From: a virus
Length of the DNA stretch: 35,232 bases
Reading direction: 5' to 3' (one strand)
IMG/VR virus record: IMGVR_UViG_3300043774_000285
Coordinates: 1-35,232 of that record
A model generated the notes under the pieces. The model had not been told where the DNA came from, did no database searches, and saw nothing but the letters and a program-made list of their open reading frames with translations. Below are positions 5,965 through 29,195 of this stretch, in pieces. Every line of letters begins with the position of its first letter. Positions within the stretch are counted from its first letter, which is position 1. The translations under genes and the position numbers were made by a program.

Positions 5965-5987
5965 ATATTTCACCTCCTAGTGATATT

Positions 5988-6554
5988 TTACTTAAATAAG
6001 TCGTTATTTGTGAGGAAACGACCTCCCCAAAGGGATTTCTGAACTTTCATTTCTGAAAGCTCCTGGATGATCTCGCCAAGATCACCAGACTTACGGAATG
6101 CGGTATCAGCCTCAACCTGATCAACACGCTTTCCAAATTCATCAAAGTTTCCCTTTACAGTTTCAATGTCGTTTGAAACTACTCCAAGAGACTTCTTTAG
6201 TTCTGCAAGTTCAGCACCAAGTGCCTTAACTGTTGCAGTTAGATCGCCAAAGGCATTATTAAGAGAGTCTTTGATTTCGGCTACAGACTCAATTAGAATC
6301 TGATTTGCTTTCGCAACCTCGTCAACAACCTCAACTCCAGCGTCCTCAACAGACTCAGGAGCTGCACTTTCAGAAACTTCTTCTGCTACAACTTCTTCTA
6401 CAGCTTCTTCTGTCTTTTCGACAGCTTCTTCTGCAGCTTCTTCTGTAACATCAGCTGGCTTATCTTCTGACGGTGCCTCTGGAGCGACCTGTACATCTTC
6501 AACAACATCTTCAGTTACTTCCGCAACCTCTGATACATTTGCTTCTTCTGTCAT
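5988..6554 (-). CDS. capsid scaffold protein from an internal start in the protease gene
   Basis: An in-frame ATG at codon 254 of the protease gene is preceded by a near-perfect ribosome site (AAGGAGGA, 7 bp before ATG), stronger than that of the full-length gene. It would yield a 188-aa protein: an acidic Glu/Val/Ala-rich segment of about 80 residues, then a coiled-coil region (about residues 85-160) and a conserved-looking aromatic/basic tail (KSLWGGRFL). Phage lambda makes its Nu3 scaffold from an internal start in the protease gene C in the same way. Whether both products are made here is inferred from the ribosome site and composition. Confidence 0.7.
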   Translation of the reverse strand: MTEEANVSEVAEVTEDVVEDVQVAPEAPSEDKPADVTEEAAEEAVEKTEEAVEEVVAEEVSESAAPESVEDAGVEVVDEVAKANQILIESVAEIKDSLNNAFGDLTATVKALGAELAELKKSLGVVSNDIETVKGNFDEFGKRVDQVEADTAFRKSGDLGEIIQELSEMKVQKSLWGGRFLTNNDLFK

Positions 6555-7359: not shown

Positions 7360-8964
7360 TTACTCTGATGATCTTCCTTCACCCTGAGCATTTCTGCCAC
7401 TAGTTGTGGCTTCGCCGTCAGATTGTTCGTTTGCTCTGTTCCTGTCTCGTTCTCTATTCTGTTGTGTATTTGCAGTTGCATCAGCAGCCTGTCTGGGGCT
7501 AAGCTCCATTGGCTCATCGCCATCTGATCTCTGAGGCAAATCTAGCAATTCACGAGCCTCGTTTGGAACCATAATCTTATTACGAACATAACGCTCAAGG
7601 ATTTGAGATTGTGCAATTTCGTCAGTAAGGGTTAGCTCATTAAACTGCAGCTCTAGTATATCAGTCTTTTCACGAACAATCTTATTAATTACCTTTTCTA
7701 GGTATTCTTGCATTGGTCGTGCAACTTGTTCTTTAAATGTCCTGTCTTGGGAAAGAGCTGCAGCAATAGCTGCTGAATCTGACCCACCAAGCTTTGAAAT
7801 TGGAACCTGATGAGCAATCAAGATATCGTCACGATTTGCCCTGCGATATTCTTTAAATGAAGCTTCTTGAATTCCAGCCTCAATTGGCTTCATGTCAAAC
7901 TCGACCTTGCTGCCATCGCTATCTCCAGGAAGTGGGATATATAGTGTTCTGTGAGACTGAGACTTTAGACCAGTTTGCAGGAATCTAAAAAGTTTGTCTT
8001 CTGCATCACCAGATAATTTGGCTCCCTTTAAAGTTACAATGTATCGTGGAACAGCCTTGTTGTTAAAGTAGTCAATATTGTACTGTGCTGCTAGTTGGTC
8101 TCCAACAAGAGAGCTCATTGCTGAAACAATGTCTGGCACTCCATAAAAAGTATTTAGTGGAGAGTATTCTTTAATGTGAATAATTTCGTTTGGCCTTGTA
8201 TCACTTGTTACTGGGTTTGCGTTCTTTGCCCCAAAATTTCTAAAGTAAACTACCTGATTTCCAATAATCTGGATATATCCATCACGAAGTCTGCGAACAC
8301 GAATAGTAGTTGCAGGAATATGTCCAACATATCCAATTTCTCCAGTTACTTTGCGACCAACCTCAATGTATGCATTGCCAGTTGACTGTAAATCAGTAAC
8401 AACCTTTTCCATTGTTTTCTGAAAACTGTCCTCATCATTTAAGTTTTCTAGCCAGTCACGTAGCTGAATCTTTAAACGCTCAATCCTATTTCGTGCACGC
8501 TTGACGGCCTCTTCGTCGTCTCGCATCTCAAGACTCATAGACGTTTTATCTGTAACGCCAAAGTGATAGCCAAGGCCAACTACGTTCTCTACCTTAGCAT
8601 CGATTGCTGCGTGGTTAGCAAATGAAGTATCATAAAAGTTTGCCAACTCATATAGATTGTACGGTGGTGTAATTACATCAAAAAGACCATAGCCATTACG
8701 ATAAACAACTCCTGGGTTAATTTGCTTAGATGATGCATCTGAGCCAGACGGTACTGCATTTGCAGAATCTAAATATGCTGTAGATACTGTTGTAGCTTTG
8801 CTTATATTTCTTACGGTTCTACGCTTAAAGTTTTGATCAATTCCAGAGTAATCCTTAAGCTGATCCCAGTTTTTAACAAACGGATCCTGGTCTTTAAAAA
8901 GATTTGCTGGCTCTTCTTGAGTATTCAGGCTAGCTGATAAATACTCCATTTCATAATCGCTCAT
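7360..8964 (-). CDS. portal protein
   Basis: A 534-aa portal protein, the dodecameric ring through which DNA enters the head. The start is the ATG of MSDYEMEYL, in a TAATG overlap with the previous stop; an in-frame extension to 9021 lies within the previous gene. Portal-like features include the PPYNLYELANFYD segment, a helix starting DAKVENVVGLGY, the 'TGNAYIEVGR' wing strand, an IIHIKEYSPLNTFYGVPDI stretch, and a C-terminal region with VPISKLGG and long helices. The last ~50 residues are polar, Gln/Asn/Arg-rich and probably disordered. The terminase large subunit usually sits just upstream; here it does not. Confidence 0.9.
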   Translation of the reverse strand: MSDYEMEYLSASLNTQEEPANLFKDQDPFVKNWDQLKDYSGIDQNFKRRTVRNISKATTVSTAYLDSANAVPSGSDASSKQINPGVVYRNGYGLFDVITPPYNLYELANFYDTSFANHAAIDAKVENVVGLGYHFGVTDKTSMSLEMRDDEEAVKRARNRIERLKIQLRDWLENLNDEDSFQKTMEKVVTDLQSTGNAYIEVGRKVTGEIGYVGHIPATTIRVRRLRDGYIQIIGNQVVYFRNFGAKNANPVTSDTRPNEIIHIKEYSPLNTFYGVPDIVSAMSSLVGDQLAAQYNIDYFNNKAVPRYIVTLKGAKLSGDAEDKLFRFLQTGLKSQSHRTLYIPLPGDSDGSKVEFDMKPIEAGIQEASFKEYRRANRDDILIAHQVPISKLGGSDSAAIAAALSQDRTFKEQVARPMQEYLEKVINKIVREKTDILELQFNELTLTDEIAQSQILERYVRNKIMVPNEARELLDLPQRSDGDEPMELSPRQAADATANTQQNRERDRNRANEQSDGEATTSGRNAQGEGRSSE

Positions 8965-9344
8965 TATTCTTCTAATGCTCCCTGACCATATTTGTCTACC
9001 GTAGCCTGTGCGTCTGCCCAAGCACCTAAATCGTTCATAGAAGGAATGAGACCTTGCTTCATTCTATCCACCTGCTCTGAATGCTCTTCTTCAGATACCC
9101 TCGTTAATCCTGGAACGAACTTTGCTTCGCCATCCCCTGGATCCCCATAATACTTTGCAGCTTGAATTAGCTCACTAATTTTACTAAGATCGTTTTTGAG
9201 CGAAGGAATATTAAGAACATTGCCTTCTCCATCAGTAAAATACTTTCCATCTGCCCTTTTATATACATAAAGGCCCCATCCATAGTTATCTTCAATAATT
9301 TGTCTACGGACATTACCAACTTTTGATAAAATATCGTTTTCCAT
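8964..9344 (-). CDS. conserved small protein preceding portal
   Basis: A 126-aa protein with a YGWGLYVYKRADGKYF segment and a DGEGNVLNIPS motif followed by a helix (KISELIQAAKYYG). I associate this pattern with a small protein often encoded just before the portal in actinobacteriophages; its function is unknown. Two ATGs are available (9350 and 9344). I favour 9344 because the TGGTATACT box ends 7 bp before it, which would give a leaderless mRNA. It ends in a TAATG overlap with the portal gene, so the two are translationally coupled. Confidence 0.7.
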   Translation of the reverse strand: MENDILSKVGNVRRQIIEDNYGWGLYVYKRADGKYFTDGEGNVLNIPSLKNDLSKISELIQAAKYYGDPGDGEAKFVPGLTRVSEEEHSEQVDRMKQGLIPSMNDLGAWADAQATVDKYGQGALEE

Positions 9345-16300: not shown

Positions 16301-18973
16301 AACTCTAACGCTAACCTGGCTGTCGTCAGTTAGTGCTGGGTAAACAAAGGCTCCACCAAAATCTTGAACCATTCCACTAACAAGAGCATCTACCTCTGTA
16401 TTTGTGAAGGTTGCACCAGGATCTAGCATAAAGACAGTTCTAAAGTATAGTGGCTTATTAGCATTTGCAGATGTAAATCCAGAAGTTGGTAGAATATACG
16501 AACTTCCATCATTAGAACCAGCAATTGCAGTCATGCTAGTATCTGTTTCTGGAGTCCATCCTAAATTCCAAATAGCAATATTTAGTTCTACATATCCTGC
16601 AGCTGATGCTCCAGTAGAAAATCTTGCAGCATAGGAAGCTCTCCATTGATTGTTTCCTCCCACGGTATAGGTTACGTTATTTTGAACCCTAGAAGACATG
16701 GTTGAAGCTAATACCCTGCTATAATTTCTAAACTCTGTTACATCTTGAACATTTGGAACTCCAACACCCCACGCAAGGCTGTAATGTGGGACAGTTGATC
16801 CTGCCCTGAAGTCTGTTCCTACGTATCCCCAGCCAAGACCAGCAAATGCAGTACCCTCTGCAGCGTCTTTTACTGCGGTTGAACTCTGCTTGTGCAAGTA
16901 CATGTCATTGTTTGGAGCATATTCTGCTTGATACTTGTAGTGACTCTTAATCAATGGCAACTCTGTTGTGCTAAATCTTGTAAGCAAGCTAGTACCAGAA
17001 GCGACTCCTGTAGTAATTGGCTGAGTAGAGTTTGCAGAACCATTAAGAATTAAGTCTTTGTGGCCAGTTAGTCCAGTCGTATAGTCGTCCATGTATGCAT
17101 CTAAAATTTTCCATGCTGCATATAGGTTTCCAGCACCAAATCTTGTATCTAGGATTGCATTGCCTGTAACTGAAGTTGGTAGGGTTCCAGTAGAGGCATC
17201 AACAAACAGCTCATCGTTGTCTACCCAACCATGATTTGGATAGTAGAAGCTATTCGCTAATGGGTTTGTAGCAGATCCAGACATATTGTATGTACCACGA
17301 GCAGCGTATAATCTTGTACTGTTGCCTGGATAAACTAGCTTAAATCTATTTGAAGATACAACCTGCACTGTTGTTGCTCCAGTAAAGTCTTGTGCTGCAT
17401 TAGTATTAAAAATGTCAGTAGTTGAAGTGCTATATGAAACGTTGGCTCCTGAAGCAGTGCTTACAGTAATAGCGTCACCAGTTAGCAATCCATGATTTTC
17501 AGCATAGAAGGTATCTGCCTCTTCATCTTGCTCCAGATACATCATGAAAAGCTGCTTGTTTAATGGAAATTGATCAACGTTAGCATTAAACGATGCAGTA
17601 TTTACAACGCAGTCATTTGTGGCTGACCAAAAAGTACCATTATACTGGAACTGGGTAGTGTTAAATTGCCTATACGTACGATATCTTTCATAGTCTTCGA
17701 TGAAGTTATACAAGCCAACAGTTGCAGTTGGTTCAGGCATAATCATTGAAGAATTAATAAAGCTGCTGTAGTAATATTCGGAAGCAGTATTTGGCAATGA
17801 GTAAGCACTTGGGCTAAAAACCATACGGAAGGTTGGAAGTCTACCGCCCAAACCCACAGAGCCACGCTCTGAAAGGTCCCAACCAGATCCAATTCCTCCC
17901 TGGTTAAATTGTGTGTAATACTCTGTAACATAAGAGTTTGAACGCTTTCTTACACGCCTTAATTCATAAACCAAATGAAAAGCTGCTCTACCAAAAGTAT
18001 AAGCACCTGTTGACGTTAAGTTAACTGTTGTAGAGCTTCCGTAAGTTGTTCCCAGCTTAAAGGTATTTGTTGTTGGCTCTTTTACATAATATACCTGGAA
18101 TCTTTCGAGACCACCAATTGCAGCGTCACCTTGTGATGGAACATAAAGCAAAGTATCGTTAGTTCTAAGACTATGATTATTCCATGTGATTGTATCGTTA
18201 ACAGTGCTTACGTTTGATGCATTAATTTTAGTGTAATAGCTTGAACGCATTTGTTTTGTTTCTGTTAAAGATTCATTAATATCTAGAGTGGCAGTAATTG
18301 TATCTGCAAAATCTACATAAGGTCTTCCATCTGGAGCATTTGAGCTAAAAGTTTCGTCAAGGTCAATTTCTTTGCTACCAACAGAATTAACTAAATAAAA
18401 AGAAGATCCTGTCTTAAATCCGTGAGCTGCTTCAGTTGTAACTACTAAAGCAGAGTTTGGACTACCTTCATCAGTTACGATTCCAAGATCTTGCTTAAAA
18501 GGAATTTGAGAGCCAGAGTAGAATTGTCCAGGAGTAATGGATGTATACAAATTTCCTAGGTTTCCACTTGATGTCTGTGGGCTAGCGGCCTCATAGGTAA
18601 AAGTTGTTACTGATGGTACAGTTTTAATTAAAAACTTTCCTTCAGCAGTTCTTGAGGCTAGTCCCTTGATATCAATTGGAGTACCCTGAACCAATCCGTG
18701 TGACTCTACAGTGGTAACGGTTATAATGTTTGAGCCTGATGTTGATGCTACAGACGCAATGTTTGGAATTGAGGCATCAGAGTCTGACACATAGAATGAT
18801 GGAATATTATTGTTAAGCTCAAGAGTTTCCCATTTAGTAGACTGAAGACCATATTCAAAGTCTGTGTCAATCATGTTTTCTGGAGTAGAAACACGAATCT
18901 TAGAAACTGGATCCATAAACGTCTCTGTAGGCTCAAAGTCCTGAGAGAAGTTAGATAGATACTGTGTAGTCAT
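13319..18973 (-). CDS. giant tail fibre/adhesin-like protein
   Basis: This 1884-aa protein is the largest in the window. It is Ser/Thr/Asn-rich and beta-rich. Several short modules have the pattern 'HGLxxGxxxxI ... F.Y' (residues about 90-135, 180-200, 495-545), seen in phage fibre proteins. Residues about 1200-1305 resemble a plastocyanin-type cupredoxin domain (PTLTLTRGATYTF ... GTITFTVPVGAPNTLYYVSQ), but the usual His, Cys and His copper ligands are missing. The start overlaps the previous stop (TAATG). A role in host binding or tail-tip architecture is inferred. Confidence 0.65.
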   Translation of the reverse strand: MTTQYLSNFSQDFEPTETFMDPVSKIRVSTPENMIDTDFEYGLQSTKWETLELNNNIPSFYVSDSDASIPNIASVASTSGSNIITVTTVESHGLVQGTPIDIKGLASRTAEGKFLIKTVPSVTTFTYEAASPQTSSGNLGNLYTSITPGQFYSGSQIPFKQDLGIVTDEGSPNSALVVTTEAAHGFKTGSSFYLVNSVGSKEIDLDETFSSNAPDGRPYVDFADTITATLDINESLTETKQMRSSYYTKINASNVSTVNDTITWNNHSLRTNDTLLYVPSQGDAAIGGLERFQVYYVKEPTTNTFKLGTTYGSSTTVNLTSTGAYTFGRAAFHLVYELRRVRKRSNSYVTEYYTQFNQGGIGSGWDLSERGSVGLGGRLPTFRMVFSPSAYSLPNTASEYYYSSFINSSMIMPEPTATVGLYNFIEDYERYRTYRQFNTTQFQYNGTFWSATNDCVVNTASFNANVDQFPLNKQLFMMYLEQDEEADTFYAENHGLLTGDAITVSTASGANVSYSTSTTDIFNTNAAQDFTGATTVQVVSSNRFKLVYPGNSTRLYAARGTYNMSGSATNPLANSFYYPNHGWVDNDELFVDASTGTLPTSVTGNAILDTRFGAGNLYAAWKILDAYMDDYTTGLTGHKDLILNGSANSTQPITTGVASGTSLLTRFSTTELPLIKSHYKYQAEYAPNNDMYLHKQSSTAVKDAAEGTAFAGLGWGYVGTDFRAGSTVPHYSLAWGVGVPNVQDVTEFRNYSRVLASTMSSRVQNNVTYTVGGNNQWRASYAARFSTGASAAGYVELNIAIWNLGWTPETDTSMTAIAGSNDGSSYILPTSGFTSANANKPLYFRTVFMLDPGATFTNTEVDALVSGMVQDFGGAFVYPALTDDSQVSVRVVNNNRFVLRSIEGFDYNLSNAGTAPIVISKQGVSNANDGTYSVAQVNSDNTFILQLPYVAPATPIQFNAALVTSNRITTLIDHFFVPGAIVTYENNGNTSMSGLTDGSNYYVVVYDERTIALASSYDNALRKIPIAISAGTSTHALITSSISGRIAGQGLVTVTAGSKKVKGNPSTLFKRYFKVGDTVAIKNTTPTPNQIESFIVAAIADDQTMELNALVPFSSTDTKYFLDTKLYARPDGYSVHRSFDGGVEMAAGTAPLAQIVRQTRKYFRYQSGKGIQNSLAINFNPPVQFETIEAVSTQTVNTGTLEYNVTASGTTNYLFNGVADPTLTLTRGATYTFNMDATGQPLFFQTTAAPYNASNIYTNGVINGGTAVGTITFTVPVGAPNTLYYVSQNAAGMTGTINIIDEALITTFKARGTTRYPHRLNAQSSIVVSGSQDPVFNGTFGIANILSDFMFEYNLPSTPNSTIPSGIIQFNMNGYQGAAIRAGMFDFQNGFFFEFDGTTLYCVRRSSTQQISGEASVVSNSNIVRGTNTNFVGQLTQDDMIVIRGGSYKVTKIVNRNEIHVQPQYKGISASNVIITKTVDTRVAQSNWSIDACDGDGITGYNLNLNKIQMAYMDYSWYGAGKIRFGFKDNKGHVKYVHEFLHNNLFDEAYMRSGNLPGRYEVVNGPTPTYAPTLFHWGTSVIMDGTFDDDKAYLFTADSDSLSFTNGQQLTANTNAASQLTSIFNSRTRTSDWYVRLSFASADASKIAAGSNLYTADEQLNGQPVAYTQFSGSTFNAFILIQNSVSAPAVFPVVGSGATVYIGEPPVAATEAVNLGTDIIPLITIRLAPSADSSITGNVGAREIINRMQLKLNEVGMILTHDCEVKLIINGDLSTVAWQNVNTPSLSQLIRHNSGDKVLGGVEVFSFRAAGGGVDNTGKRLSGTSNFDLGEIIDMGNSILGGDGTFPNGPDILTVAVKVVSTAGIGSASPFTASSRITWSESQA

Positions 18974-20121
18974 TAAGCTAGCCTCCAGCCAATTGTTTCA
19001 TTAATGTAGATGAACACTACGGTAGCTCCACCAACATCTATAATTAGATTTCCTTCGATTGTGTTAATCTTTTCTGTTCCAGGGTCAATTATAACATATT
19101 CGCTCTGGAAAAAATCCTGTGTGTCAAAAACGCTAACGGTGGTTCCTGGAATTGGGTTATCTGGAAGAGTTATAGTAAAAAACCCTCCACGAGTATCACA
19201 AAATAGGTTTGCTCCAACCTCTAGAACAATATCATCAGTAACCTCGATAAAAGCTTCTTGTCCTGGAAGGAAGTCCCAATAAACTTCTTCTCCATCATTT
19301 GTCATCCATTTTCCAGTTGTTCCAGTTCCAACAGTATTGTCTAAAGCAGGAATAAGTAAAAGATTTTCCCAGTAATAAGTTGTTCCATTGTTTGTAAGCC
19401 ACTTTCCAGTTTGTCCAGTAGTAGCTGGTACCTGATTTGGCGAAGTTACCCAAGAAACATTTGTTCCATCAGTAGTTAAAACTTTTCCAGTGTTGGTGGC
19501 CTGTGAAGGATAAAGATCATTAGGGTTACCACCTGTAATAATAGTTCCACTAACATTTGGCAAGGTTAGCACTCTATCCGCAGTAGTGGCTGTTGGTGGA
19601 ACAATACTTATATTAAATCCACTACCAGAATCAAAAAAGTCAAAAGTTGATAAGATATATAAAGCATCTGTTTCTAGCAATTCAGTAACTTGAACGTTTC
19701 CAGTAACTACTAGATCGTGAGGGTTTCCTACTGCTCCAACCATGGCTCTTGCAAGAATTGTGGTTTCTGTATTAAACAAAACATTTCCAGAAGCCACCGT
19801 AAGAGCTGCTGTTGGACTTGCTGTCTGAATACCAACAAAACCAGAACTATTAACTACAAATGGGCTAGAGTCAACGCTGGCACTATCTTCAATTAAGATT
19901 GCTGGACCTGATCCGTTTTGTGTAATCTTTACTGCAGGGCTTGAAGAGTTAACAAGAAATGAGTTAATTCCAGTAAAGGTGTTTGCCACATTTAGGTCTG
20001 ACTTAACAGCAAGAATTTCTTCAATCTTTTGAGCTAGGTCTTCCATGTCTCCATGAACGTCTACACCGTCAGTAGATAACGGATAGGGAAGACTGTAAAT
20101 AGGGGTTAATCCAGATGCCAT
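18973..20121 (-). CDS. tail fibre-like protein with GKxxTNxG repeats
   Basis: A 382-aa protein. The N-terminus (LPYPLSTDGVDVHGDMEDLA) resembles the base of fibre proteins that attach to the tail, and the middle contains a 'GxVGIQTASPTAALTV' fibre-shaft motif. Three related repeats follow at about residues 215-285: GKVLTTDGTNVSW, GKWLTNNGTTYYW and GKWMTNDGEEVYW. The C-terminus is a beta-rich 'ITLPDNPIPGT' domain like the one ending the 363-aa protein at 29195. It has its own promoter, ahead of the run of tail genes to the left. Receptor binding is a reasonable inference. Confidence 0.65.
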   Translation of the reverse strand: MASGLTPIYSLPYPLSTDGVDVHGDMEDLAQKIEEILAVKSDLNVANTFTGINSFLVNSSSPAVKITQNGSGPAILIEDSASVDSSPFVVNSSGFVGIQTASPTAALTVASGNVLFNTETTILARAMVGAVGNPHDLVVTGNVQVTELLETDALYILSTFDFFDSGSGFNISIVPPTATTADRVLTLPNVSGTIITGGNPNDLYPSQATNTGKVLTTDGTNVSWVTSPNQVPATTGQTGKWLTNNGTTYYWENLLLIPALDNTVGTGTTGKWMTNDGEEVYWDFLPGQEAFIEVTDDIVLEVGANLFCDTRGGFFTITLPDNPIPGTTVSVFDTQDFFQSEYVIIDPGTEKINTIEGNLIIDVGGATVVFIYINETIGWRLA

Positions 20122-20164: not shown

Positions 20165-21577
20165 TTATGTTATAATCTTAGTTTTGTACTGACTCTCCCA
20201 GTTTTTAATGTCATCCTCATCATTAAGAAGAGGTTGGCCCTTTATGTTTAGGCTTGTGTTTAAAAGTATTGGAACTCCAGTCTCTTTATAAAATTTTTCC
20301 AACACAGCATATAGACCAGGGTGTTGCATAGCATTAACTGTTTGTACCCTCGACGTGCCGTCTACGTGGACCACAGAGGGGATAATGTCTGGCTTTAGGC
20401 ATCTGGGGGTGTATTGCATATAAGGGCTTGTATAGTCCATTTCGAACCATTCAGAGGCATATTCTTCCATTACCACTGGTGCAAATGGCCTAAACAACTC
20501 TCGCTGTTTAATTTTATTTACAAGGTTTTTAATATTTGGATCTCTTGGGTCAGCAAGGATGCTTCTATTTCCAAGAGCACGTGGTCCAAACTCTGCCTTG
20601 CCACTTGCAACAGCAACAATCTTATTGGTCATAATTTCGTTAAATATTTTTTCTATTGGATATTCTCCACCAAGATCATAGCCAAGATATGGACCATCCC
20701 AAGTAACATGCTTGCCTCTTAGTGCAAGAGCTGCACCTAAAGAAGATCCAGCATCTCCTGGATTTGGCATAATCCAAACATCTGAAAATATATCCCACAA
20801 CATAGTGTTTGCTTTACTATTTAAAGCACATCCTCCCATAAAGACTAGGTTTGAGCTATCTAGATCCTGCCTAGCAATATACATAAAGTCCCAGAGCCTA
20901 TCTTCGTAAACTCTTTGTACTGCTGCAGCAATATCAAACTTATCTTGCTCGGTTATTTCTTGACCCCAGTCAAGTATACCTTTGTGAAAATTATACTTTT
21001 GCTCATAGACTGATGGAAAGTACTCTGACACCTTGTCAAGATAAACTTTTGAGTTTCCATAGGCAGCCATCCCCATCATAATATATTCTTCTTGGTTAGC
21101 CTTTAAACCTATAAGATCTGTAAAGGCAGAATAGAATAGACCAAAGCTAAATGGGTAGTTCCACTTCTTGTGAAGCTTAATACTTTCTCCCTTTCCAACC
21201 CAAATACTAGAAGTGGTAAACTCTCCTATGGCATCTAAGACTACAATAGTTGCGTCTTTAAATGGACTAGTATAATACCCTGCTGCTGCGTGAGAATAAT
21301 GATGCCTAAAAGCTTTATCATAGAAATGGCGTGGTTTCCAGTCAGACGCCCCACCATGAAGCAAAAGCCTTAGTTTTTTTAAATTTGGCTTCTCGTAATA
21401 AACAATTGCATCTGGTTCCCCAAACTTAAGGGCTTCTAGCCATAAAGCATCGCTAGTATACCAGTCATTTTTTACTTTACTATAGCGTTCTGCATGCCCA
21501 GCAAACAAAATCCTGTCATTATCAACAACTGCTAATGCAGCGTCGTGCGACGTTTCGTTAAAGCCAATTATTCTCAT
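20165..21577 (-). CDS. O-carbamoyltransferase (NodU/CmcH/TobZ family)
   Basis: A 470-aa enzyme that would transfer a carbamoyl group from carbamoyl phosphate to a hydroxyl, typically on a sugar. The N-terminal HSP70/actin-like domain has SHDAAL near the start, the HHYSHAAAGYY metal/His cluster at about residues 91-101, and VFMGGCALN; the C-terminal YrdC-like part has GPRALGNRSILADPR, RPFAPVV, DGTSRVQTV and LLNTSLNIKGQP. It is somewhat short for the family, ending soon after the last motif. As the final gene of the modification cluster, it probably finishes a glycan carried by the virion or host surface. Confidence 0.9.
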   Translation of the reverse strand: MRIIGFNETSHDAALAVVDNDRILFAGHAERYSKVKNDWYTSDALWLEALKFGEPDAIVYYEKPNLKKLRLLLHGGASDWKPRHFYDKAFRHHYSHAAAGYYTSPFKDATIVVLDAIGEFTTSSIWVGKGESIKLHKKWNYPFSFGLFYSAFTDLIGLKANQEEYIMMGMAAYGNSKVYLDKVSEYFPSVYEQKYNFHKGILDWGQEITEQDKFDIAAAVQRVYEDRLWDFMYIARQDLDSSNLVFMGGCALNSKANTMLWDIFSDVWIMPNPGDAGSSLGAALALRGKHVTWDGPYLGYDLGGEYPIEKIFNEIMTNKIVAVASGKAEFGPRALGNRSILADPRDPNIKNLVNKIKQRELFRPFAPVVMEEYASEWFEMDYTSPYMQYTPRCLKPDIIPSVVHVDGTSRVQTVNAMQHPGLYAVLEKFYKETGVPILLNTSLNIKGQPLLNDEDDIKNWESQYKTKIIT

Positions 21578-21655
21578 TAGTATAAGTAATCTTTGCCTTT
21601 AAAATTTTTATATAATTTTGGGTACCTAATTCTAATATAAAGATTTTTTAAAAAA

Positions 21656-22576
21656 TTAATCACTTGCCCTCCATACTTTTAAAAACATTTCTGCAGTAAA
21701 AGCAGAATAGTCAATTCCTGGATGAATGCCATCTCTAGCATAATGCGAATATTTTTTATACTTTTCGTTTATTTTTATAAAACCATTGCCCAACTCACCA
21801 GAAAAGTTACTAACATTGATATAATTATTAAACTTTAATTTTTCATATAAATCAATATCATCAGGTTTCCACGCATGCCAAAAAAGCTTTATTCCGAATC
21901 CTTTGCAAAGTAATTCTAACATTTTAATTTGATTGATAGCCTGGTATGCTCTGTCTTCAAATCTATAGGCTTGAATTACATTAAAAAGGTGCCTATCTCT
22001 TTTTTTATTTTCCACAGAGATTAGGCTTGGAGTATAGGTAATATACTTTTCTTCGTCTGGGTGATATAAGATGTGCCTATTTATATCTGGCAATAAAGCA
22101 AATATTGCATTTGGTGTACCATACTTGGAGACAAAGGTAAGAAAATTATTAATGATAGAATCTACTCCAAGTCCTGGCGATCCTAAATTATGCATTTTTA
22201 CATTGGGTTTATTTTTTTTAATACTGTCTTCCAGAATTTTTGGCCAAGTATATTGCTCTGGAATCCCAAAACCAAAAGTATACGAGCACCCCAAGGCAAC
22301 CACATTGTAGTTCTCATTGCTTAAAGTAGAAAAATGTTTGCCTCTAAATAAATCACTGTTTAAAGTGTAGTCAAAGTCTTTTGCATCTTCATCTTTTTCT
22401 TTTTCATCATTATGAAGATATTGATAATGAAGGTAGCCATCTTTATCAGTGTATTCTGTTTCTCTAGCATAATAAAAAGCATCAAAAATATGAAAAAATT
22501 TACTATCATTTAAATCAGATTTAATTTTTTCAAATGTTTTAAAATCATAAACAAAAGTACTGTGAAGATATGGCAT
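21656..22576 (-). CDS. SGNH/GDSL-type hydrolase or acyltransferase
   Basis: A 306-aa protein with SGNH blocks: Ser98 in ALGCSYTFGFG (block I), Gly in NLGSPGLGVDS (block II), LLPDINR (likely block III) and Asp282-x-x-His285 in DGIHPG (block V). The family removes or transfers acyl groups on sugars and lipids. Residues 1-90 are an extra N-terminal region rich in Tyr, Asp and Lys. It overlaps the preceding gene through TAATG. Placed between glycosyltransferases and a carbamoyltransferase, it could acylate or deacylate a glycan; which direction cannot be told from sequence. Confidence 0.8.
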   Translation of the reverse strand: MPYLHSTFVYDFKTFEKIKSDLNDSKFFHIFDAFYYARETEYTDKDGYLHYQYLHNDEKEKDEDAKDFDYTLNSDLFRGKHFSTLSNENYNVVALGCSYTFGFGIPEQYTWPKILEDSIKKNKPNVKMHNLGSPGLGVDSIINNFLTFVSKYGTPNAIFALLPDINRHILYHPDEEKYITYTPSLISVENKKRDRHLFNVIQAYRFEDRAYQAINQIKMLELLCKGFGIKLFWHAWKPDDIDLYEKLKFNNYINVSNFSGELGNGFIKINEKYKKYSHYARDGIHPGIDYSAFTAEMFLKVWRASD

Positions 22577-23340
22577 TAGACAATCCTTTTTTGATGATCA
22601 TAATATTTTTCCCCAAAAGCGTGCTCTCCATTAAAGTACTTTCTTCCAGATTCGTGTGCTTTTGACTTATCATCATACTGCCTTTGTCGAGAAAACTCTT
22701 TACCATCCATATCTTCATTATCTATAAGCTCTTCATCAAAATAATTTGAAACAATATCTAAGTCAAAGCTATCAACAAAATATCTTGGTACTGGGATAAA
22801 AGCACCAAGAGGATCACCCTTTTTAACGTGAACGGTTCTTCCAGGATCAGTCATTTTAATATTAAACGTGAAATCTCTACGAATCTGGTCAGTCTCAATA
22901 ACACCAGTCATTGCTACCATTCCAGGGATATACATGTTAGGTGGTTGAATTGTCATCAAATTAACACCTGGTGGTGTTTTAAGATGAAACCTATTCTGAA
23001 TAGTTAAAACACCACTAGCAAATCCTGGACCAATGTGTTGCATATCAGAGCCATCGTTATTATGAATGTTTACTGTAATGTCTTTGGGGTTTTCCATTGT
23101 TCCATCCCAGGTTGCATCAAAATCATAATAAGACCTTAAGACAAACCCGTATTGATTTCCAATATTAATTGGCAAGCAATAATAAAAATGACTATTAAAC
23201 CAATCTCTTTTAATGTTTCCTTTTAAGGACTCAAGAACTTCCTTATATCTTTCTTCTTGATCTTTTCTTTCTTTAAAAGGAATTACTAAAATTTTATTTT
23301 CTGGCACCTCATGCCCAGGATCGTTAATGTATTTCTTCAT
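22576..23340 (-). CDS. DUF6065-like protein (second copy)
   Basis: A 254-aa protein starting at the ATG of MKKYINDP; an in-frame extension to 23421 would overlap the glycosyltransferase by 98 bp and is unlikely. The core (YYCLPINIGNQYGFVL, then an aromatic/acidic stretch with ATWDG, then PPGVNLMTIQPPN and GDPLGAFIPVPRYF) resembles what I recall of DUF6065, a phage-associated family of unknown activity. It is paralogous to the protein at 26681 (shared C-P-I ... G..FVL ... WDG). The context suggests a part in hydroxylation or glycan chemistry, but no catalytic residues can be named. Confidence 0.6.
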   Translation of the reverse strand: MKKYINDPGHEVPENKILVIPFKERKDQEERYKEVLESLKGNIKRDWFNSHFYYCLPINIGNQYGFVLRSYYDFDATWDGTMENPKDITVNIHNNDGSDMQHIGPGFASGVLTIQNRFHLKTPPGVNLMTIQPPNMYIPGMVAMTGVIETDQIRRDFTFNIKMTDPGRTVHVKKGDPLGAFIPVPRYFVDSFDLDIVSNYFDEELIDNEDMDGKEFSRQRQYDDKSKAHESGRKYFNGEHAFGEKYYDHQKRIV

Positions 23341-24343
23341 AATTTCTTTCTTTTTTAAAATATGACATTTGTAAGCCGATTGCACCCTGATACAAGTCTT
23401 TATCTGTATTAGCAAGCTCAAATATTTTTTTGTAAAGATCTTTTAGGTTTACTCCAAGTTTGTCACAATAGTCATTATAAGACTCCAGGTCTTTTGCACC
23501 ATAGTAGCCAAACCAGTCGCCGTTTAAAATTTCAGCAACTCTGCAAATTGACTTAGCGGTGTTATGATAAAAAGTTCTCAATCCTTCTGTGTCATTAAAC
23601 CTTTTGTCTTGTCTCCAGTCAAAGCTATATTTTAGACCATACTCTTTAGTTTTGTGCCTAATAACATTGTTTTTAATAGCAAAAATTTTATAGCCATGAG
23701 TGTATGTCCTAATTGCCAATGTTGGCTCTTCACCAGCAAAAACAATAAATGGATCTGGAGAAACCTCACGAGTATATTCGGCATTAGCAAAAATAAAATG
23801 CCCAGACATTAAAAAGTGCTCTCCATAATCATCAAACTCAAAGTTTCCTGCGATGCTTTTGGCCATTGGGTGCCTTTGGTCTGTGTTTAAGTGCATATCA
23901 TCAGTAACAGACAGCTTACAGCCTTCTAAGGTTCCTAAAGCAACAATCTCTCCGTCTTCTGACCAATGCCAAGGTGGCAAGTAGCTGCTAATTACAGACG
24001 GCCCGTGTCTTGTGGTAATTTTTTCATACATATAAACTAAATATGAGTCCCACCCTGGCTCGAATAACATATGTGCATCTATCTGCAAATAATAAGTTTC
24101 ATCCTTCATTAATGAAATAGCTAAAAGCCTGTTTAGTGGACAAAAAGATTGTGAGTTATAATCTAATCCTATAACTTTTACATTATCATATTTAGATAAA
24201 TTTGGCCTGTTTCCGTCTGTGTAATGAGAGACTATGCCAAAATGAATTCTTTCTGGTTCTGTAGCATTTTCTAACGCACTTTGAATAGTTAGCTCTAAGT
24301 CTGGCTCATTATAGGCAGCAATAGAAACAAAAATACTGCTCAT
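23324..24343 (-). CDS. GlcNAc-transferase-like glycosyltransferase (GT60/PF11397 type), copy 2
   Basis: A 339-aa GT-A type glycosyltransferase. It opens with IFVSIAAYNEPDLELTI, has the metal-binding DAH triplet at residues 89-91 (YYLQIDAHMLFEPGWD) and a later acceptor/donor region (VFAGEEPTLAIRTYTHGYKIFA). These match the layout of the PF11397 family, whose best-known member, Gnt1, adds GlcNAc to hydroxyproline of Skp1 in Dictyostelium. It is a paralogue of the gene at 25917. The sugar and the acceptor are not determined by sequence; hydroxyproline is suggested by the neighbouring prolyl-hydroxylase-like genes. Confidence 0.8.
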   Translation of the reverse strand: MSSIFVSIAAYNEPDLELTIQSALENATEPERIHFGIVSHYTDGNRPNLSKYDNVKVIGLDYNSQSFCPLNRLLAISLMKDETYYLQIDAHMLFEPGWDSYLVYMYEKITTRHGPSVISSYLPPWHWSEDGEIVALGTLEGCKLSVTDDMHLNTDQRHPMAKSIAGNFEFDDYGEHFLMSGHFIFANAEYTREVSPDPFIVFAGEEPTLAIRTYTHGYKIFAIKNNVIRHKTKEYGLKYSFDWRQDKRFNDTEGLRTFYHNTAKSICRVAEILNGDWFGYYGAKDLESYNDYCDKLGVNLKDLYKKIFELANTDKDLYQGAIGLQMSYFKKERNYEEIH

Positions 24344-24346
24344 AAA

Positions 24347-24925
24347 TTAAATAATCCATCCATCAAAGTATTCTTTTTCCTGAGTCCAAAATGAAGCTAA
24401 GGTATATCTCATTCCATTTTCAACTTTAGTTACTCCGTGTAGATGTTCTGGATCTCCTGGGTGAACAGCTAAAGTTCCTACTTTTGGAACAATTTCAAAG
24501 TTGTGGTTTGGATAAAATGTGTGACCACCATCATAATTATCGTTTAAATAAATGATTGCACCAAACTCTCTGTGCTTAAACCACTCAACTAAATGTTTTT
24601 CATGTTCCATAGCATCTGTCATATCGTCAGCGTGTGGGTGTTGTTCCATTCCAGGAAACCACCTTACTACCTGAAATAAATCTGGATAAATTTCTGGAAC
24701 CTCGTATAATTTTTTAATTTCTTCGCCCACACGAGCACGAATATCATACAAAAGTTTTCCAATTTCTTTGCTACGATTTTGATAAATCATGATTGCATTT
24801 AGGCTTCTGTTATCCCAGAAGTCAGATCCACCATGCTCCCATGGCTCTATATCTTTTACAAAGTCTAGGATAGCCCTAGCCTCTTCCTGTGAAACAACGT
24901 TATCTACTGTTTTTGCTCTGAACAT
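24347..24925 (-). CDS. prolyl 4-hydroxylase-like 2OG-Fe(II) oxygenase
   Basis: A 192-aa protein with the full facial triad of the family: His98-x-Asp100 (HPHAD), distal His163 (HLHGV) and the 2-oxoglutarate-binding Arg173 (GMRYTLASFW). The fold-typical stretch IIYLNDNYDGGHTFYP is also present. Such enzymes use Fe(II), O2 and 2-oxoglutarate to hydroxylate proline or other residues. The ribosome site (AGGGAG) is good. It lies between the two glycosyltransferases, which would suit a hydroxylate-then-glycosylate pathway. A substrate other than proline is possible. Confidence 0.88.
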   Translation of the reverse strand: MFRAKTVDNVVSQEEARAILDFVKDIEPWEHGGSDFWDNRSLNAIMIYQNRSKEIGKLLYDIRARVGEEIKKLYEVPEIYPDLFQVVRWFPGMEQHPHADDMTDAMEHEKHLVEWFKHREFGAIIYLNDNYDGGHTFYPNHNFEIVPKVGTLAVHPGDPEHLHGVTKVENGMRYTLASFWTQEKEYFDGWII

Positions 24926-24939
24926 TTTTTCTCCCTATC

Positions 24940-25917
24940 TTATATTTTATTAAAATTTTCGTCATTTGTCAAGAATAGGTCACGTTTTTTATACCAGTCT
25001 TCAAAGCTAATGTTTGCAACCTTTTCGTATTCTCTTAAAAGATTAAGGCTGGGTGCTCCCCAATATCCTAGAATTTTGCCAGTCAAAATATCCCTTGTTC
25101 TTAAGTGAGAACGATCTTGCTTTTCTAGCCAATCTTGAAATAAGTCTGGATCTCCTGTAGTAATCCATCTATCATGCTTATAAAGTTTTCCTGCACCTTT
25201 ATTGTAATGCCATACAATGGGATCTGGAATACAAAATATTCGATATCCCCTTGTCCATGCACGTAACGCTGTTGTCATTTCTTCGCCAAAAAACATCATT
25301 TGAATATCTGGCAAAATTTCATACACAAATCTACCTGAAGTAAAAATAAAATGTGCAGATAATCCATAGTGCTCATAATATTCTTTATCAGTCCAATCAA
25401 CACCGAAGCTTTCTTGAACTGGAACTGGGGCTCTGGTATAGCCATCCTCAGAGTATTTCATTGGAGCACATTTTTGTAGGCTATTTGAAGAATAATGAAG
25501 AATATTGTCATTTTCATCATTCGCCCACCATGGAACATAGGTTGTGATTAATGGAAATTCACATTTTTCTTTTTGTTTGATATTTTCGTATGCGTTTACT
25601 AAAACATCATCCCAATCTTTTTGGAAAAGCATGTGAGCATCTAATTGTAAATAATAATCTTCGTTATTATACATAAACAGAGCAGCAGTTCTTGCAGAGC
25701 ATACTCCTAAAAGCGTGGGGTATTGTGCAGTGATCATTTTAATGTTATCAAATTGTGACATATCTGGCATGACATCATCGTTGTTGTGTGCCCAAATACC
25801 AAATACCAATCTCTCTGGATACTTAGCCATCTCAATGCAATTTTGAACAGTTTGTTCTAAGTATGACTCATTATAAGAGCCTATGGCAATAAAAATAGTT
25901 TTTTCTGAATTATTCAC
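24940..25917 (-). CDS. GlcNAc-transferase-like glycosyltransferase (GT60/PF11397 type), copy 1
   Basis: A 325-aa paralogue of the glycosyltransferase at 24343. It has the same opening (IFIAIGSYNESYLEQTV), the DAH metal site at residues 93-95 (YYLQLDAHMLF) and FFGEEMTTALRAWTRGYRIF further on, followed by a His-rich VWHYNKGAG. The start is GTG, preceded by a G-rich ribosome site; no in-frame ATG fits. The two copies differ clearly and so may add different sugars or use different sites. The family is firm; the substrate is inferred from context. Confidence 0.8.
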   Translation of the reverse strand: MNNSEKTIFIAIGSYNESYLEQTVQNCIEMAKYPERLVFGIWAHNNDDVMPDMSQFDNIKMITAQYPTLLGVCSARTAALFMYNNEDYYLQLDAHMLFQKDWDDVLVNAYENIKQKEKCEFPLITTYVPWWANDENDNILHYSSNSLQKCAPMKYSEDGYTRAPVPVQESFGVDWTDKEYYEHYGLSAHFIFTSGRFVYEILPDIQMMFFGEEMTTALRAWTRGYRIFCIPDPIVWHYNKGAGKLYKHDRWITTGDPDLFQDWLEKQDRSHLRTRDILTGKILGYWGAPSLNLLREYEKVANISFEDWYKKRDLFLTNDENFNKI

Positions 25918-25928
25918 AGCATACCCCC

Positions 25929-26681
25929 TTATTCTTTATTGATTGTTGATGGACATGGCCTAAAAGGCTTGTCTAAATGTTTTACATCGTCTGACTCTAT
26001 GCCATGCTTATACATTTGATGCCACTTCCAATCTTCGTTGTTTTGGTAAAAACTATCTCGTTTTTGATTATATGCTCCAACTCTTTCCAGCTCTTCTTCG
26101 TTTGCATCAGATATAGAAAATTCTGTTGTCTCAAGAAGACTTTTTGGATAAGTCATCATAAACATAAATGGAGTTCCAGCAGGAATAGTAATTTCTTTAT
26201 TTGCCCTTGTTATCTTCCAGCAGAATTGAATAGTGTTATAGTGATACCAGTTTGACTGCAACAAAGCATTCATTGGCTGAACACCATCAATAAAGTAATT
26301 TGGTGCACCCATTAACCAAACATAGTGATCTGAATCAGTCTCAATAATGCAATTTAGCTGAAAGGATATTGTAGCGTTAGCTGTACCATTATCAACAAAT
26401 ACGCTTCCACTACTAGATACCCCACCTTCAAGAATTTTAACATGATCTCTAGAACTATCTGAAATTCCATCCCAGATAAACTTAACATCATTTTTTAATA
26501 CGAACTCCCAACCATGTGATCCAGCAGTGCTTATTGGCTGGCACATATACCCATGAGCATTGTGCGTATTGTCTAAATGGTCTCTTTTTAGCTTTCCCTG
26601 TCTAACTTCATAGAAGTCCGAATTGTCGCCTAACATCTTCAGAGTAATAGATGGGTGAGTCTTTGGCATGTGCAAAATCAT
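25929..26681 (-). CDS. DUF6065-like protein (first copy)
   Basis: A 250-aa protein resembling DUF6065: YMCQPISTAGSHGWEFVL, then FIWDG, then an ITIPAGTPFMFMMTYP segment near residue 170 and a C-terminal helix rich in Arg, Glu and Gln. It is paralogous to the protein at 23340. Its reading frame overlaps the oxygenase gene by up to 74 bp; ATGs at 26669 and 26636 are alternative starts. I kept the longest because the ITLKML strand looks like part of the domain. Function unknown. Confidence 0.6.
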   Translation of the reverse strand: MILHMPKTHPSITLKMLGDNSDFYEVRQGKLKRDHLDNTHNAHGYMCQPISTAGSHGWEFVLKNDVKFIWDGISDSSRDHVKILEGGVSSSGSVFVDNGTANATISFQLNCIIETDSDHYVWLMGAPNYFIDGVQPMNALLQSNWYHYNTIQFCWKITRANKEITIPAGTPFMFMMTYPKSLLETTEFSISDANEEELERVGAYNQKRDSFYQNNEDWKWHQMYKHGIESDDVKHLDKPFRPCPSTINKE

Positions 26682-27312
26682 TCCTGTCTGTCATAATTAC
26701 TAGTGAATACTTAATTCCGTCATCGGTTACTGGCTCTGATGAATGAGCGTATGAGAATGCTGATGGGGAGATAACAAAGTCTCCTGCTTTTGGCTTATGT
26801 TTTACATCAAACAGTGGGAACCACAGCTCTCCACCTTCATAATCATCATTTGGATAACCAACAGCAGAAATAGTGCAGCGATAAGGCTCTCCATCATCAC
26901 TATGAATTTTAAAGTATTCACCTTTTCCATATTTAACAATGTTAATTGCTTCAATGTATTCCATAGTTCCCGAATAAGTTAGTCTGCTGTAATGCTCAAG
27001 GCATACTTTTAGGCTAAGTTCAATTTCGCCATGAAGTTTGTAGGCGTCCTCTGAATATTCGTTTAATTCTCCTAGATCTCTAGGATGAAGCTTCCAGTCT
27101 TTGCATTTTCTTGCATCGTTAATTACATCTCCGTACCCAACCTCGGCAGAAGCCCACTGAAACCTAGTTCCCTCTTTAGACAAGATAGTCTCAACTCTAT
27201 TAATAATATTCATGCTTTTTGGCAAAGCATTGCGGTATACAATAATGCCAGGTGCTAAAACTTCATAGTCTACTTCGTATTCTTGGTCTTCAAACCAAAC
27301 TACATCTTTCAT
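26608..27312 (-). CDS. 2OG-Fe(II) oxygenase, prolyl-hydroxylase-like, divergent
   Basis: A 234-aa protein starting at ATG 27312 (AAAGGGG ribosome site), not at the in-frame ATG 27351. The triad is His137-x-Asp139 (KIHSDD) and His190 (SYAHSSEPV); the usual 2-oxoglutarate Arg is replaced by Lys201 (IKYSLVIM). GGELWFPLF and KAGDFVISPSAF are typical jelly-roll strands of this superfamily. It is the first gene of the modification cluster and follows the proline-repeat protein by 72 bp, with a promoter between them. A prolyl target is inferred. Confidence 0.8.
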   Translation of the reverse strand: MKDVVWFEDQEYEVDYEVLAPGIIVYRNALPKSMNIINRVETILSKEGTRFQWASAEVGYGDVINDARKCKDWKLHPRDLGELNEYSEDAYKLHGEIELSLKVCLEHYSRLTYSGTMEYIEAINIVKYGKGEYFKIHSDDGEPYRCTISAVGYPNDDYEGGELWFPLFDVKHKPKAGDFVISPSAFSYAHSSEPVTDDGIKYSLVIMTDRNDFAHAKDSPIYYSEDVRRQFGLL

Positions 27313-27339
27313 TATACCCCTTTCGAAAGGCCCATAAAA

Positions 27340-27348
27340 ATTATAGCA
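27340..27348 (-). promoter_or_regulatory. extended -10 promoter TGCTATAAT for modification cluster
   Basis: TGC-TATAAT lies between the proline-repeat gene and the first oxygenase. It gives the cluster its own start, with a leader of about 20 nt containing AAAGGGG. Confidence 0.55.
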
Positions 27349-27384
27349 CATGCAAGTCTTTTACGAAATACATATGCCATAATC

Positions 27385-28104
27385 TTATCTAAAAAATCTA
27401 GGTGGTGGTGGAGGGAATCGTGGTGGAGGTGGAGGGAAGCGTGGTGGAGGTGGAGTAAAGTATGGTGGTGGTGGAGTAAACATTGGTGGAGTAAACATTG
27501 GTGGTGGTGGGATGAAGTATGGGGGTGCTGTAAACATAGGTGGTGGAACTGAAAACATTGGTGGTGGCACAAAAAATGCTGGTGGTGGAACTGAGAATCT
27601 TGGTGGTGGAGAAAACACAGGCGGAGGAGTAAATACTGGTGGTGGAGTAAATACTGGCGGTGGGGTAAATACTGGTGGGACAGTAAATACTGGCGGAGGA
27701 GTAAATACTGGTGGGGTAAATACTGGTGGCACAAAAATAAAAACTGGCGGTGCAGATACTGTTGTAATCGAATTACTTGATGCACTTTCTGGAGAGCTAC
27801 CCAAAATATTTGTTGCTCTAACTTTAAAGGTGTATGCCACTCCTGGAGTAAGTCCATTAACAATTACAGGGGAAGAAGTTGAAGTTCCTACAATATTGCC
27901 AGGAGTTGAGGTAGCTATATAGCTAATTTCATTAAATACGCTGTCTTCATCTCTTTTACCCAAATACACTGGAGAAGTAAAAGTAATCGATGCAGATGGT
28001 AGCTGATCCATTCCAGGTGCAATAGCCGTGGCTGTTCCAATAAGTGGTGCTGTTGCAATTTTACCAGCAGAACCCTCAGCCCCCTTTTTGCTATACCTAG
28101 ACAT
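27385..28104 (-). CDS. fibronectin-III protein with long PPxF repeat tail
   Basis: A 239-aa protein. The start is the ATG of MSRYSKKG in a TAATG overlap with the preceding fibre gene; an extension to 28134 is inside that gene. Residues 1-35 are small and basic, about 35-117 form a fibronectin type III domain (YTFKVRATNILGSSPES), and 118-237 consist of about 19 units ending in Phe, mostly (T/S/V)PPP(V/M/R)F. This part would form an extended polyproline-II rod. It sits among virion genes and directly before two prolyl-hydroxylase-like and two hydroxyproline-GlcNAc-transferase-like genes, so it is the obvious candidate substrate. Function in the virion is not known. Confidence 0.75.
   Translation of the reverse strand: MSRYSKKGAEGSAGKIATAPLIGTATAIAPGMDQLPSASITFTSPVYLGKRDEDSVFNEISYIATSTPGNIVGTSTSSPVIVNGLTPGVAYTFKVRATNILGSSPESASSNSITTVSAPPVFIFVPPVFTPPVFTPPPVFTVPPVFTPPPVFTPPPVFTPPPVFSPPPRFSVPPPAFFVPPPMFSVPPPMFTAPPYFIPPPPMFTPPMFTPPPPYFTPPPPRFPPPPPRFPPPPPRFFR
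27388..27753 (-). repeat. PPxF-coding tandem repeat
   Basis: About 19 imperfect units of 15-21 bp encode PPVF, PPPVF, PPPMF, PPPPRF and similar. Units at the end nearest the stop codon carry four or five prolines. The DNA is GGT/GGA-rich on the + strand, so slippage in copy number is likely. Confidence 0.85.
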
Positions 28105-29195
28105 TATGCTATTAGATCTCCAGTTAGTGCCCACTCTTGGTTTGTGGCACTTGGATCTGTTAGTTTAGTGACAGTGCATGAAGAATACCTTGCTCTTAGT
28201 TTGTTTCCTGGAGATGCCAGTATTAAAACAGTAGCGTTAAGTGGAGCAACTGACACTTGACCAGTTCCTTTTTGAAAAATTGTAAATTGTGATCCTTTTG
28301 GAAAAGAGGCAAGTGCAGTATCTGGAAGCGTTACGCTTATTGGACTAGAACTATCTACAATAACAAGTTGTCCATCCCAAGATGTTTGAGCACCTGAATT
28401 AGATGTTAGTGTTATCATATCAACATGATAAACCACGTTTCCTGTAACAGATAAAGAAGATAAAGTTCCTGTAGATGTAATAGATGAAAGATTTCCAGTG
28501 GTTATGGCAGTTCCAGTTGCATCTGGTAGGGTGATTGTTCTATCAGCAGTAGGTTCGCCACCATTAAGAATAGTTTCAAAATCATTCGCAGTAGTTCCTT
28601 CAAAAGTAATTCCAGCATCAGAAATATATAACCCAGTTGCAGTTGCAGAATTAATTACTGGAGAAGTTAGCGTTTTATTTGTAAAAGTTTCTGTTCCTGC
28701 AAGGGTAGCAAAATCGTTATCACTTAAGGCGGTGTTAAACTGTGCAGTAGTTCCCGTTAAAGTGTTTGCGGTTAACCCTATTGTTTTGTTAGTTACGGTA
28801 ACTGTATTATCTGGAGTAATTGATGGGGCAGCCCACTGAATTCCATTTGGGACTGAAGCGTTTGCAACTAAGATAAATCCGTCAGCACCAACGGCTAGGG
28901 TAGCAGGAGTATTAATTGCTGTACCAGTAATAAGTGCTCCCTTCCCAGTGATCTGAGAGGGCTGAATACCAGGAGATGCTTCTAATGCAGCAACTTTAAC
29001 ATTAAGTGTATTGATATAGGAAGCTATAGACTGCGGAACAAGAGTACCACTGTTTGCATTTGCTGGATCATATTCACCAATGTTAGTTCCTGATGTAGCA
29101 CCATAGTGATAAAGTCTAAATGCCTCCTGAATATCAGCAGCTTCAGATAAAGATGGAACTTTAGTTGGTATTAAGGTACCAATTGTTTCTGGCAT
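28104..29195 (-). CDS. tail fibre-like protein
   Basis: A 363-aa protein: an N-terminal helical segment (VPSLSEAADIQEAFRLYHYG), then long stretches of the 'TVTNKTI ... NTLTGTTAQFN ... TFTNKTLTSPVI' repeat type common in phage fibres, and a C-terminal beta domain with ISVTLPDTALASFPKGSQFTIFQ. The C-terminal domain resembles that of the 382-aa protein at 20121. It has an AAGGAGA ribosome site and is coupled to the proline-repeat gene by TAATG. Likely part of a fibre or a receptor-binding structure. Confidence 0.7.
   Translation of the reverse strand: MPETIGTLIPTKVPSLSEAADIQEAFRLYHYGATSGTNIGEYDPANANSGTLVPQSIASYINTLNVKVAALEASPGIQPSQITGKGALITGTAINTPATLAVGADGFILVANASVPNGIQWAAPSITPDNTVTVTNKTIGLTANTLTGTTAQFNTALSDNDFATLAGTETFTNKTLTSPVINSATATGLYISDAGITFEGTTANDFETILNGGEPTADRTITLPDATGTAITTGNLSSITSTGTLSSLSVTGNVVYHVDMITLTSNSGAQTSWDGQLVIVDSSSPISVTLPDTALASFPKGSQFTIFQKGTGQVSVAPLNATVLILASPGNKLRARYSSCTVTKLTDPSATNQEWALTGDLIA

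Follow-up and report, generated by a model that had tools for sequence, protein, structure and literature searches.

Why would a phage keep two enzymes resembling prolyl hydroxylases close behind the gene for a proline-rich repeat protein? The question is raised by a 35-kb IMG/VR virus fragment from an uncultured phage (IMGVR_UViG_3300043774_000285, 35,232 nucleotides; hereafter the window), in which a minus-strand cassette encodes, in order, a PPxF repeat protein, a prolyl-4-hydroxylase-like 2-oxoglutarate (2OG)-Fe(II) oxygenase (P4Ha), a DUF6065 protein (DUF6065a), a glycosyltransferase (GTa), a second oxygenase (OXYb), a second glycosyltransferase (GTb), another DUF6065 protein (DUF6065b), an SGNH-like protein and an O-carbamoyltransferase. 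From sequence comparisons and a structure model, we consider it probable that the phage uses this cassette to modify one of its own proteins after translation: the repeat would be hydroxylated and, in a minority of phages, also glycosylated by the glycosyltransferases (GTs). An earlier note on this DNA had proposed such a scheme, extended by acyl and carbamoyl capping. All the genes that it named are present, on the minus strand and in the order it gave.

The repeat protein and the oxygenases

The PPxF protein contains 19 PPxF motifs in 239 residues, and its 121-residue repeat region includes 58 Pro and 22 Phe. Shuffling this region gave a mean of 5.0 PPxF motifs and a maximum of 12. It has only three Ser, and the Ser-Pro(n) motifs of extensins and other hydroxyproline-rich glycoproteins were not found in it, the repeat being PPxF. 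Across phages the repeat is carried on differing scaffolds, including fn3, PASTA and S74 chaperone domains; the typical form in loci fetched by P4Ha is PPFFPPFF on fn3 domains, often with a Hint-like C-terminal domain, and P4Ha is likewise found close to PASTA carriers with enough flanking sequence, such as L122, L145, L152, L167 and L446. Because the PPxF protein lies among tail genes and the scaffold domains are typical of appendages, we infer that it is a tail appendage located on the virion. Hint/intein-like domains form the C-terminal end of many repeat proteins (e.g., L013 8448-9803, Hint_2 1e-5, and L483 6471-7982), suggesting autoprocessing or appendage attachment.

In profile searches both oxygenases matched PF13640 and, as the earlier note had anticipated, both GTs matched PF11397; no family acting only on lipids, lipopolysaccharide or nucleotides came up. 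P4Ha has a collagen-type 2-His-1-Asp plus Lys site in a prolyl 4-hydroxylase (P4H) fold, and its H150, D152, H203 and K214 are invariant in an alignment of 41 phage homologues. The best match of its profile in the PDB was the Bacillus anthracis P4H (3itq, 1.4e-6). When the AlphaFold model of P4Ha (pLDDT 89.8) was searched with Foldseek, the top matches, at E 1e-9, were the B. anthracis P4H, PBCV-1 vCPH (second best, 5c5t) and HIF PHD2, with template-modelling (TM) scores of at most 0.70 by target length, and the Chlamydomonas P4H with (Ser-Pro)5 (3gze) was also near the top of the list. Profile, active site and modelled fold together fix the predicted enzyme class of P4Ha, although they do not fix its substrate. 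OXYb has the residues H98xD100 and H161 with a downstream Arg, and matched prolyl 3-hydroxylase 1 at 5e-4 and P4H at 1.6e-3 in the PDB.

Linkage of the repeat to the oxygenases

A scan with P4Ha fetched 65 viral loci. Nearly all of those with enough upstream sequence have a same-strand PPxF protein upstream, in a recurring order of tail gene, PPxF protein, one or two P4Ha genes, DUF6065, OXYb and further oxygenases. Three long P4Ha loci lack PPxF and carry SPGF/DPGF (L007), PFFPSF (L019) or IIATP (L008) repeats. In the reciprocal direction, a DNA pattern for PPFFPPFF, which is blind to oxygenases, yielded at least 118 analysable loci; we counted, among the matches listed, the 68 in which a repeat protein was present together with at least 2.5 kb of downstream sequence. 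In the 6 kb downstream, 54 of these 68 have a P4Ha relative, 56 have either oxygenase and 50 have DUF6065. Among the 20 listed PPFF records without a nearby P4Ha, 15 hold PF13640 elsewhere in the record, with up to 11 copies. The co-location of the cassette families is far beyond chance: none of 119 viral control loci (1.0 Mb) chosen with a random 14-mer carries any cassette family or such a repeat. Because many loci are kin, these numbers do not count as independent observations; clustering of the 57 P4Ha proteins found next to repeats gave 45 groups at 90% identity, 22 at 70% and 7 at 50%.

Repeat and enzymes are also absent together. In four sister phages with approximately 72-74% portal identity (G062, G067, G072 and G073), homologues of the flanking tail genes (tail28 and tail13/19) are kept and both the repeat and the cassette are missing, the two flanking genes being separated by only about 350 bp in G072 and G073. 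When whole records of the portal relatives were searched, PPFF came up in just two, both of which bear P4Ha. The enzymes seem to go with the repeat, since its scaffolds (fn3, PASTA, S74) are unrelated to one another; this and the joint absence in sister phages argue against mere shared ancestry. The linkage is stronger and broader than the earlier note could see, and its proposal that the oxygenases hydroxylate the PPxF protein gains strong comparative support from the reciprocal linkage, the varied scaffolds, the joint absence and the P4H-type site, with the repeat as the inferred substrate. The survey of relatives that it had called for found repeat and oxygenase together broadly, with the GT as an optional member.

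Glycosyltransferases, tyrosine-rich repeats and neighbouring genes

The two GTs of the window scored 114 and 112 bits against PF11397 (cut-off 21), and both contain DAH, a DxH metal-binding motif; a profile search for a solved homologue found none. A divergent PF11397 subclade has CGH in place of DAH (L068 8913-9920 and L405 1342-2337), and the GT of L068 adjoins a PPGFF repeat protein. P4H, PF11397 GT and candidate substrate lie close together in the window, in L007, L462 and L495 and in others, whereas the GT is missing in most PPFF phages. In L005/L451 (590-2937, corresponding to 22576-25917 of the window) GTa is 93% identical and GTb is absent, which indicates a recent gain or loss of GTb.

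Loci were also fetched with a GT profile built from five closer GTs, all 13 together being too diverged. Among the resulting 47 loci, an oxygenase was found within 5 kb in 23 and DUF6065 within 5 kb in 23. An oxygenase was present in 6/6 loci with Pro/Phe repeats and in 0/10 with Tyr-rich repeats (APPVYY, AAPQYY, YHAP). At the level of whole records, PF13640 was found in 7/7 Pro/Phe-repeat records versus 1/12 Tyr-repeat records, counts that include near-duplicates (e.g., L467 and L493). Pro/Phe repeat windows are 43% Phe and 42% Pro with less than 3% Tyr, while Tyr-type windows are 29% Tyr. As Tyr-repeat GT loci are almost always without oxygenases, one reading of these sequences is that the GT may need a hydroxyl acceptor, supplied either by Tyr or by hydroxylation. 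In the GT tree, GTs of Pro/Phe-repeat loci are dispersed (11 changes, of which supported branches force at least 10), and those of Tyr-repeat loci form one supported clade; L475, labelled Tyr on this tree, actually has a PPTF repeat. A scan with a DNA pattern for Tyr repeats returned mostly contigs already fetched by GT, plus three unrelated-looking proteins with neither gene, and so adds weak independent support. Tyr-rich repeat proteins beside PF11397 GTs occur at L467 6648-7283, L468 1-1275, L496 6685-7254, L497 5365-7335 and L474 6899-7504, and Tyr O-glycosylation is possible in these phages.

The fold of DUF6065 has only weak similarity to dUTPase (E 4.5e-4, TM 0.39 by query length), a match too weak for a dUTPase-type function to be drawn from it, and we found no literature on this family. 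The SGNH-like protein was called from motifs; it has no Pfam match and a marginal GDSL match in the PDB (E 0.2). The carbamoyltransferase matched PF16861 (1e-53), PF02543 (3e-41) and PDB chains of the TobZ/GdmN family (2e-48). Small Cys-rich zinc-ribbon proteins stand beside repeat or GT genes in L453 (5904-6146 and 6366-6599), L465 (3253-3531) and L467 (7697-7984); that of L465 is a DUF6171 protein (2e-6), and the GT of L125 has a similar segment fused to it. Many relatives have a gap between DUF6065a and OXYb; in L016 it holds a protein of about 240 residues (3297-4031) without a Pfam match.

Searches of GenBank phages gave no match to the PPxF protein and none to the DUF6065 protein, and GT matches only in three large Xanthomonas/Stenotrophomonas phages. 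By portal (46%), the closest isolates are Streptomyces Stanwilliamsviridae, so an actinobacterial host is our guess; in LukeCage no such cassette was seen within the stretch examined. A genome-contig scan for cellular homologues returned only six metagenome-assembled genome contigs, of which L445 and L446 are probably misbinned phage because both carry the repeat. Coordinates are collected in Table 1.

Table 1. Genes of the cassette, its flanks and the structural genes of the window.
Feature	Position	Strand	Evidence
Tail-fibre-like protein, conserved flank upstream of cassette	28104..29195	-	phrog_38058 2e-15; kept in cassette-less sister phages
fn3 + PPxF repeat protein, 239 aa, ATG at 28104, proposed substrate	27385..28104	-	fn3 7e-6
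P4Ha, prolyl-4-hydroxylase-like 2OG-Fe(II) oxygenase	26608..27351	-	PF13640 4e-8; H150xD152...H203...K214
DUF6065a, regular companion of P4Ha	25929..26681	-	PF19541 4e-30
GTa, PF11397 (GT60-like) glycosyltransferase	24940..25917	-	PF11397 1e-32; DAH at 93-95
OXYb, second 2OG-Fe(II) oxygenase	24347..24925	-	PF13640 4e-8; HxD...H...R
GTb, second PF11397 glycosyltransferase	23324..24343	-	PF11397 7e-32; DAH at 89-91
DUF6065b	22576..23421	-	PF19541 1e-35
SGNH/GDSL-like protein, outside conserved core	21656..22576	-	motifs only
O-carbamoyltransferase (TobZ/NodU type), outside conserved core	20165..21577	-	PF02543/PF16861, phrog_1601
Tail protein, conserved flank downstream of cassette	18973..20121	-	weak tail PHROG matches; homologues in sister phages
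Portal	7360-9021		
Protease	5988-7313		
Major capsid	4855-5973		

Competing explanations and known systems

In an attempt to decide what the cassette does, we weighed several other explanations of the same genes. The full scheme of the earlier note, in which hydroxylation is followed by N-acetylglucosamine-type glycosylation and by acyl and carbamoyl capping to give an extensin-like virion glycoprotein, draws on the fact that all the genes form one run, on the repeated association, in several GT lineages, of PF11397 GTs with Pro/Phe repeats and oxygenases, and on the recurrence of carbamoyltransferase and SGNH with GT and oxygenase in L452, L457, L471, L478 and L480. The last four of these loci have no repeat, however, and among 76 Pro/Phe-repeat loci with 8 kb of downstream sequence present, the carbamoyltransferase (within 10 kb) and SGNH each lay near only one. 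In Xanthomonas phage XacN1 (L554 7992-11709) the GT adjoins a carbamoyltransferase beside replication genes, with no Pro repeat, and such repeat-less groups of GT and carbamoyltransferase likely have another target. The capping step is thus not supported, and we regard the scheme as a whole as unlikely. A more restricted alternative is that only hydroxylation concerns the repeat, and that the GT, SGNH and carbamoyltransferase genes are a separate moron cluster for a cell-surface glycan or other target. Absence of the GT from 34 of 40 mostly oxygenase-bearing records and the existence of SGNH/carbamoyltransferase/oxygenase/GT groups without a repeat would fit this, but GTs fetched by GT sequence alone often adjoin Pro/Phe or Tyr repeat proteins in the same architecture, and no sugar-nucleotide or polysaccharide export genes were found among the window proteins scanned; we give this alternative roughly one chance in four.

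Oxygenase, GT and carbamoyltransferase are also a gene set of the kind known from TET-type phage pathways, in which an oxygenase makes a hydroxylated base that the other two decorate. DNA hypermodification of this kind is nevertheless very improbable here: against TET/JBP (PF12851), OXYb scored 13 bits with a cut-off of 34.9 (a sub-threshold match, E 0.062) and P4Ha had no match, both oxygenases matching prolyl hydroxylases instead; no C5 methyltransferase was seen among the window proteins scanned, and the linkage to the repeat and the location among tail genes would be left unexplained. Alternatively, the loci may descend from one appendage locus, with oxygenases that target host proteins, nucleotides or metabolites, the usual assumption for phage 2OG oxygenases. 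Many loci do have portal and tail genes in common, and cyanophages have arrays of 2OG oxygenases near tail-fibre genes without such repeats; one paper lists cyanophage 2OG oxygenases with nitrogen metabolism (PMC5628999). This too seems to us improbable, given that the repeat is found beside P4Ha even on unrelated scaffolds, that close sisters lack both, and that P4Ha is as diverse as 22 clusters at 70% identity.

Several observations weigh against modification of the repeat by the cassette. L210 has a window-like PPVF repeat and no P4Ha on its 14-kb contig. Conversely, L453 has a P4Ha-DUF6065-GTa-OXYb run of the window's own clade, with a P4Ha that appears by our reading of the sequences to be the closest to that of the window, and the adjacent protein is rich in Cys and Thr without PPxF; in L008, P4Ha accompanies the IIATP repeat. 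The contigs are all fragmentary and many of them are kin, and the 2OG oxygenases of phages can have other targets. PF11397 was found in only 6 of the 40 mostly oxygenase-bearing records, most PPFF phages being without such a GT, and above the cut-off in 3 of 34 portal relatives, so the GT is an optional part. The contrast between Tyr and Pro/Phe repeats may reflect a single evolutionary event, since the Tyr-repeat GTs form one clade. PBCV-1 encodes a P4H, vCPH, for which proline-rich peptides are substrates in vitro (Eriksson et al., 1999, cited in PMC9301287). According to a review that refers to unpublished amino acid analysis, PBCV-1 particles contained no hydroxyproline (PMC7019647, reference 162), which may be taken as a warning for the phage proposal. 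PBCV-1 differs in being an algal virus whose enzyme has no known dedicated neighbouring substrate, whereas the phage repeat protein is genetically tied to its enzyme.

Taking these points together, we still favor a cassette that modifies the repeat, with hydroxylation a well-supported part of it and glycosylation in a subset of phages a plausible one. During infection P4Ha, perhaps with OXYb, would use O2, Fe(II) and 2OG to hydroxylate prolines of the repeat inside the host cell, and hydroxylation of Phe is also possible. This may stiffen the polyproline rod and raise the solubility of a very hydrophobic Pro/Phe repeat. GTa and GTb would then add sugar to the new hydroxyls in the window phage and a minority of relatives, as the earlier note proposed on the basis of this one locus, and DUF6065 would be a regular partner in the cassette.

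The nearest two-step precedent is Skp1 of Dictyostelium and Toxoplasma, in which a cytoplasmic P4H (PhyA) is followed by a GT (Gnt1) acting on the hydroxyproline (PMC3515798). The phage GTs belong to the PF11397 family, and the analogy drawn in the earlier note is fair at that level. However, Skp1 is modified at a single conserved proline, Pro143, in oxygen sensing, whereas the candidate phage substrate is a 19-PPxF repeat in a tail-region protein. Extensins likewise have proline repeats in extended proteins, and an algal P4H is among the fold matches of P4Ha, but their motif is Ser-Pro4 rather than the PPxF or PPFF of this prokaryotic virus. Plant and algal hydroxyproline-rich glycoproteins use GT families other than PF11397. 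In mycobacteriophage work, a phage GT has been proposed to modify the phage's own structural protein; we know of no hydroxylation step in the glycosylation of phage virion proteins. The cyanophage 2OG-Fe(II) oxygenases (phrog_61, phrog_2297) belong to the same superfamily as the phage enzymes described here and form arrays near tail-fibre genes, but the best matches are 27-36% identical and those examined have no Pro/Phe repeat beside them. In Synechococcus phage S-SCSM1 (L553 882-9904), 2OG oxygenases are interleaved with tail-fibre genes without a Pro/Phe repeat, and these enzymes may act on another fibre sequence.

A survey of Baltic viruses describes the viral use of prolyl 4-hydroxylase as remaining cryptic (PMC9301287), and our searches of the open-access literature (subscription papers and preprints being outside the scope) turned up no account of prolyl hydroxylases tied to a repeat protein in a phage. 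2OG-Fe(II) oxygenases and P4H-like genes are common yet unexplained in aquatic phages, and the linked repeat protein offers a specific, testable substrate. More tentatively, and with somewhat less than even confidence, we suggest a widespread, dedicated system, found mostly in uncultured phages, of hydroxylated and sometimes glycosylated Pro-aromatic repeat appendages, in which Tyr repeats, having hydroxyls of their own, would need no oxygenase and Pro/Phe repeats would obtain theirs from up to approximately 11 oxygenases on Pro and possibly Phe. Such a system would give hydroxyproline-rich glycoproteins a counterpart in prokaryotic viruses. Modification of the linked repeat protein would by itself bring prolyl hydroxylation, and possibly hydroxyproline glycosylation, to the structural proteins of bacterial viruses, and phage assembly would gain an oxygen-dependent step.

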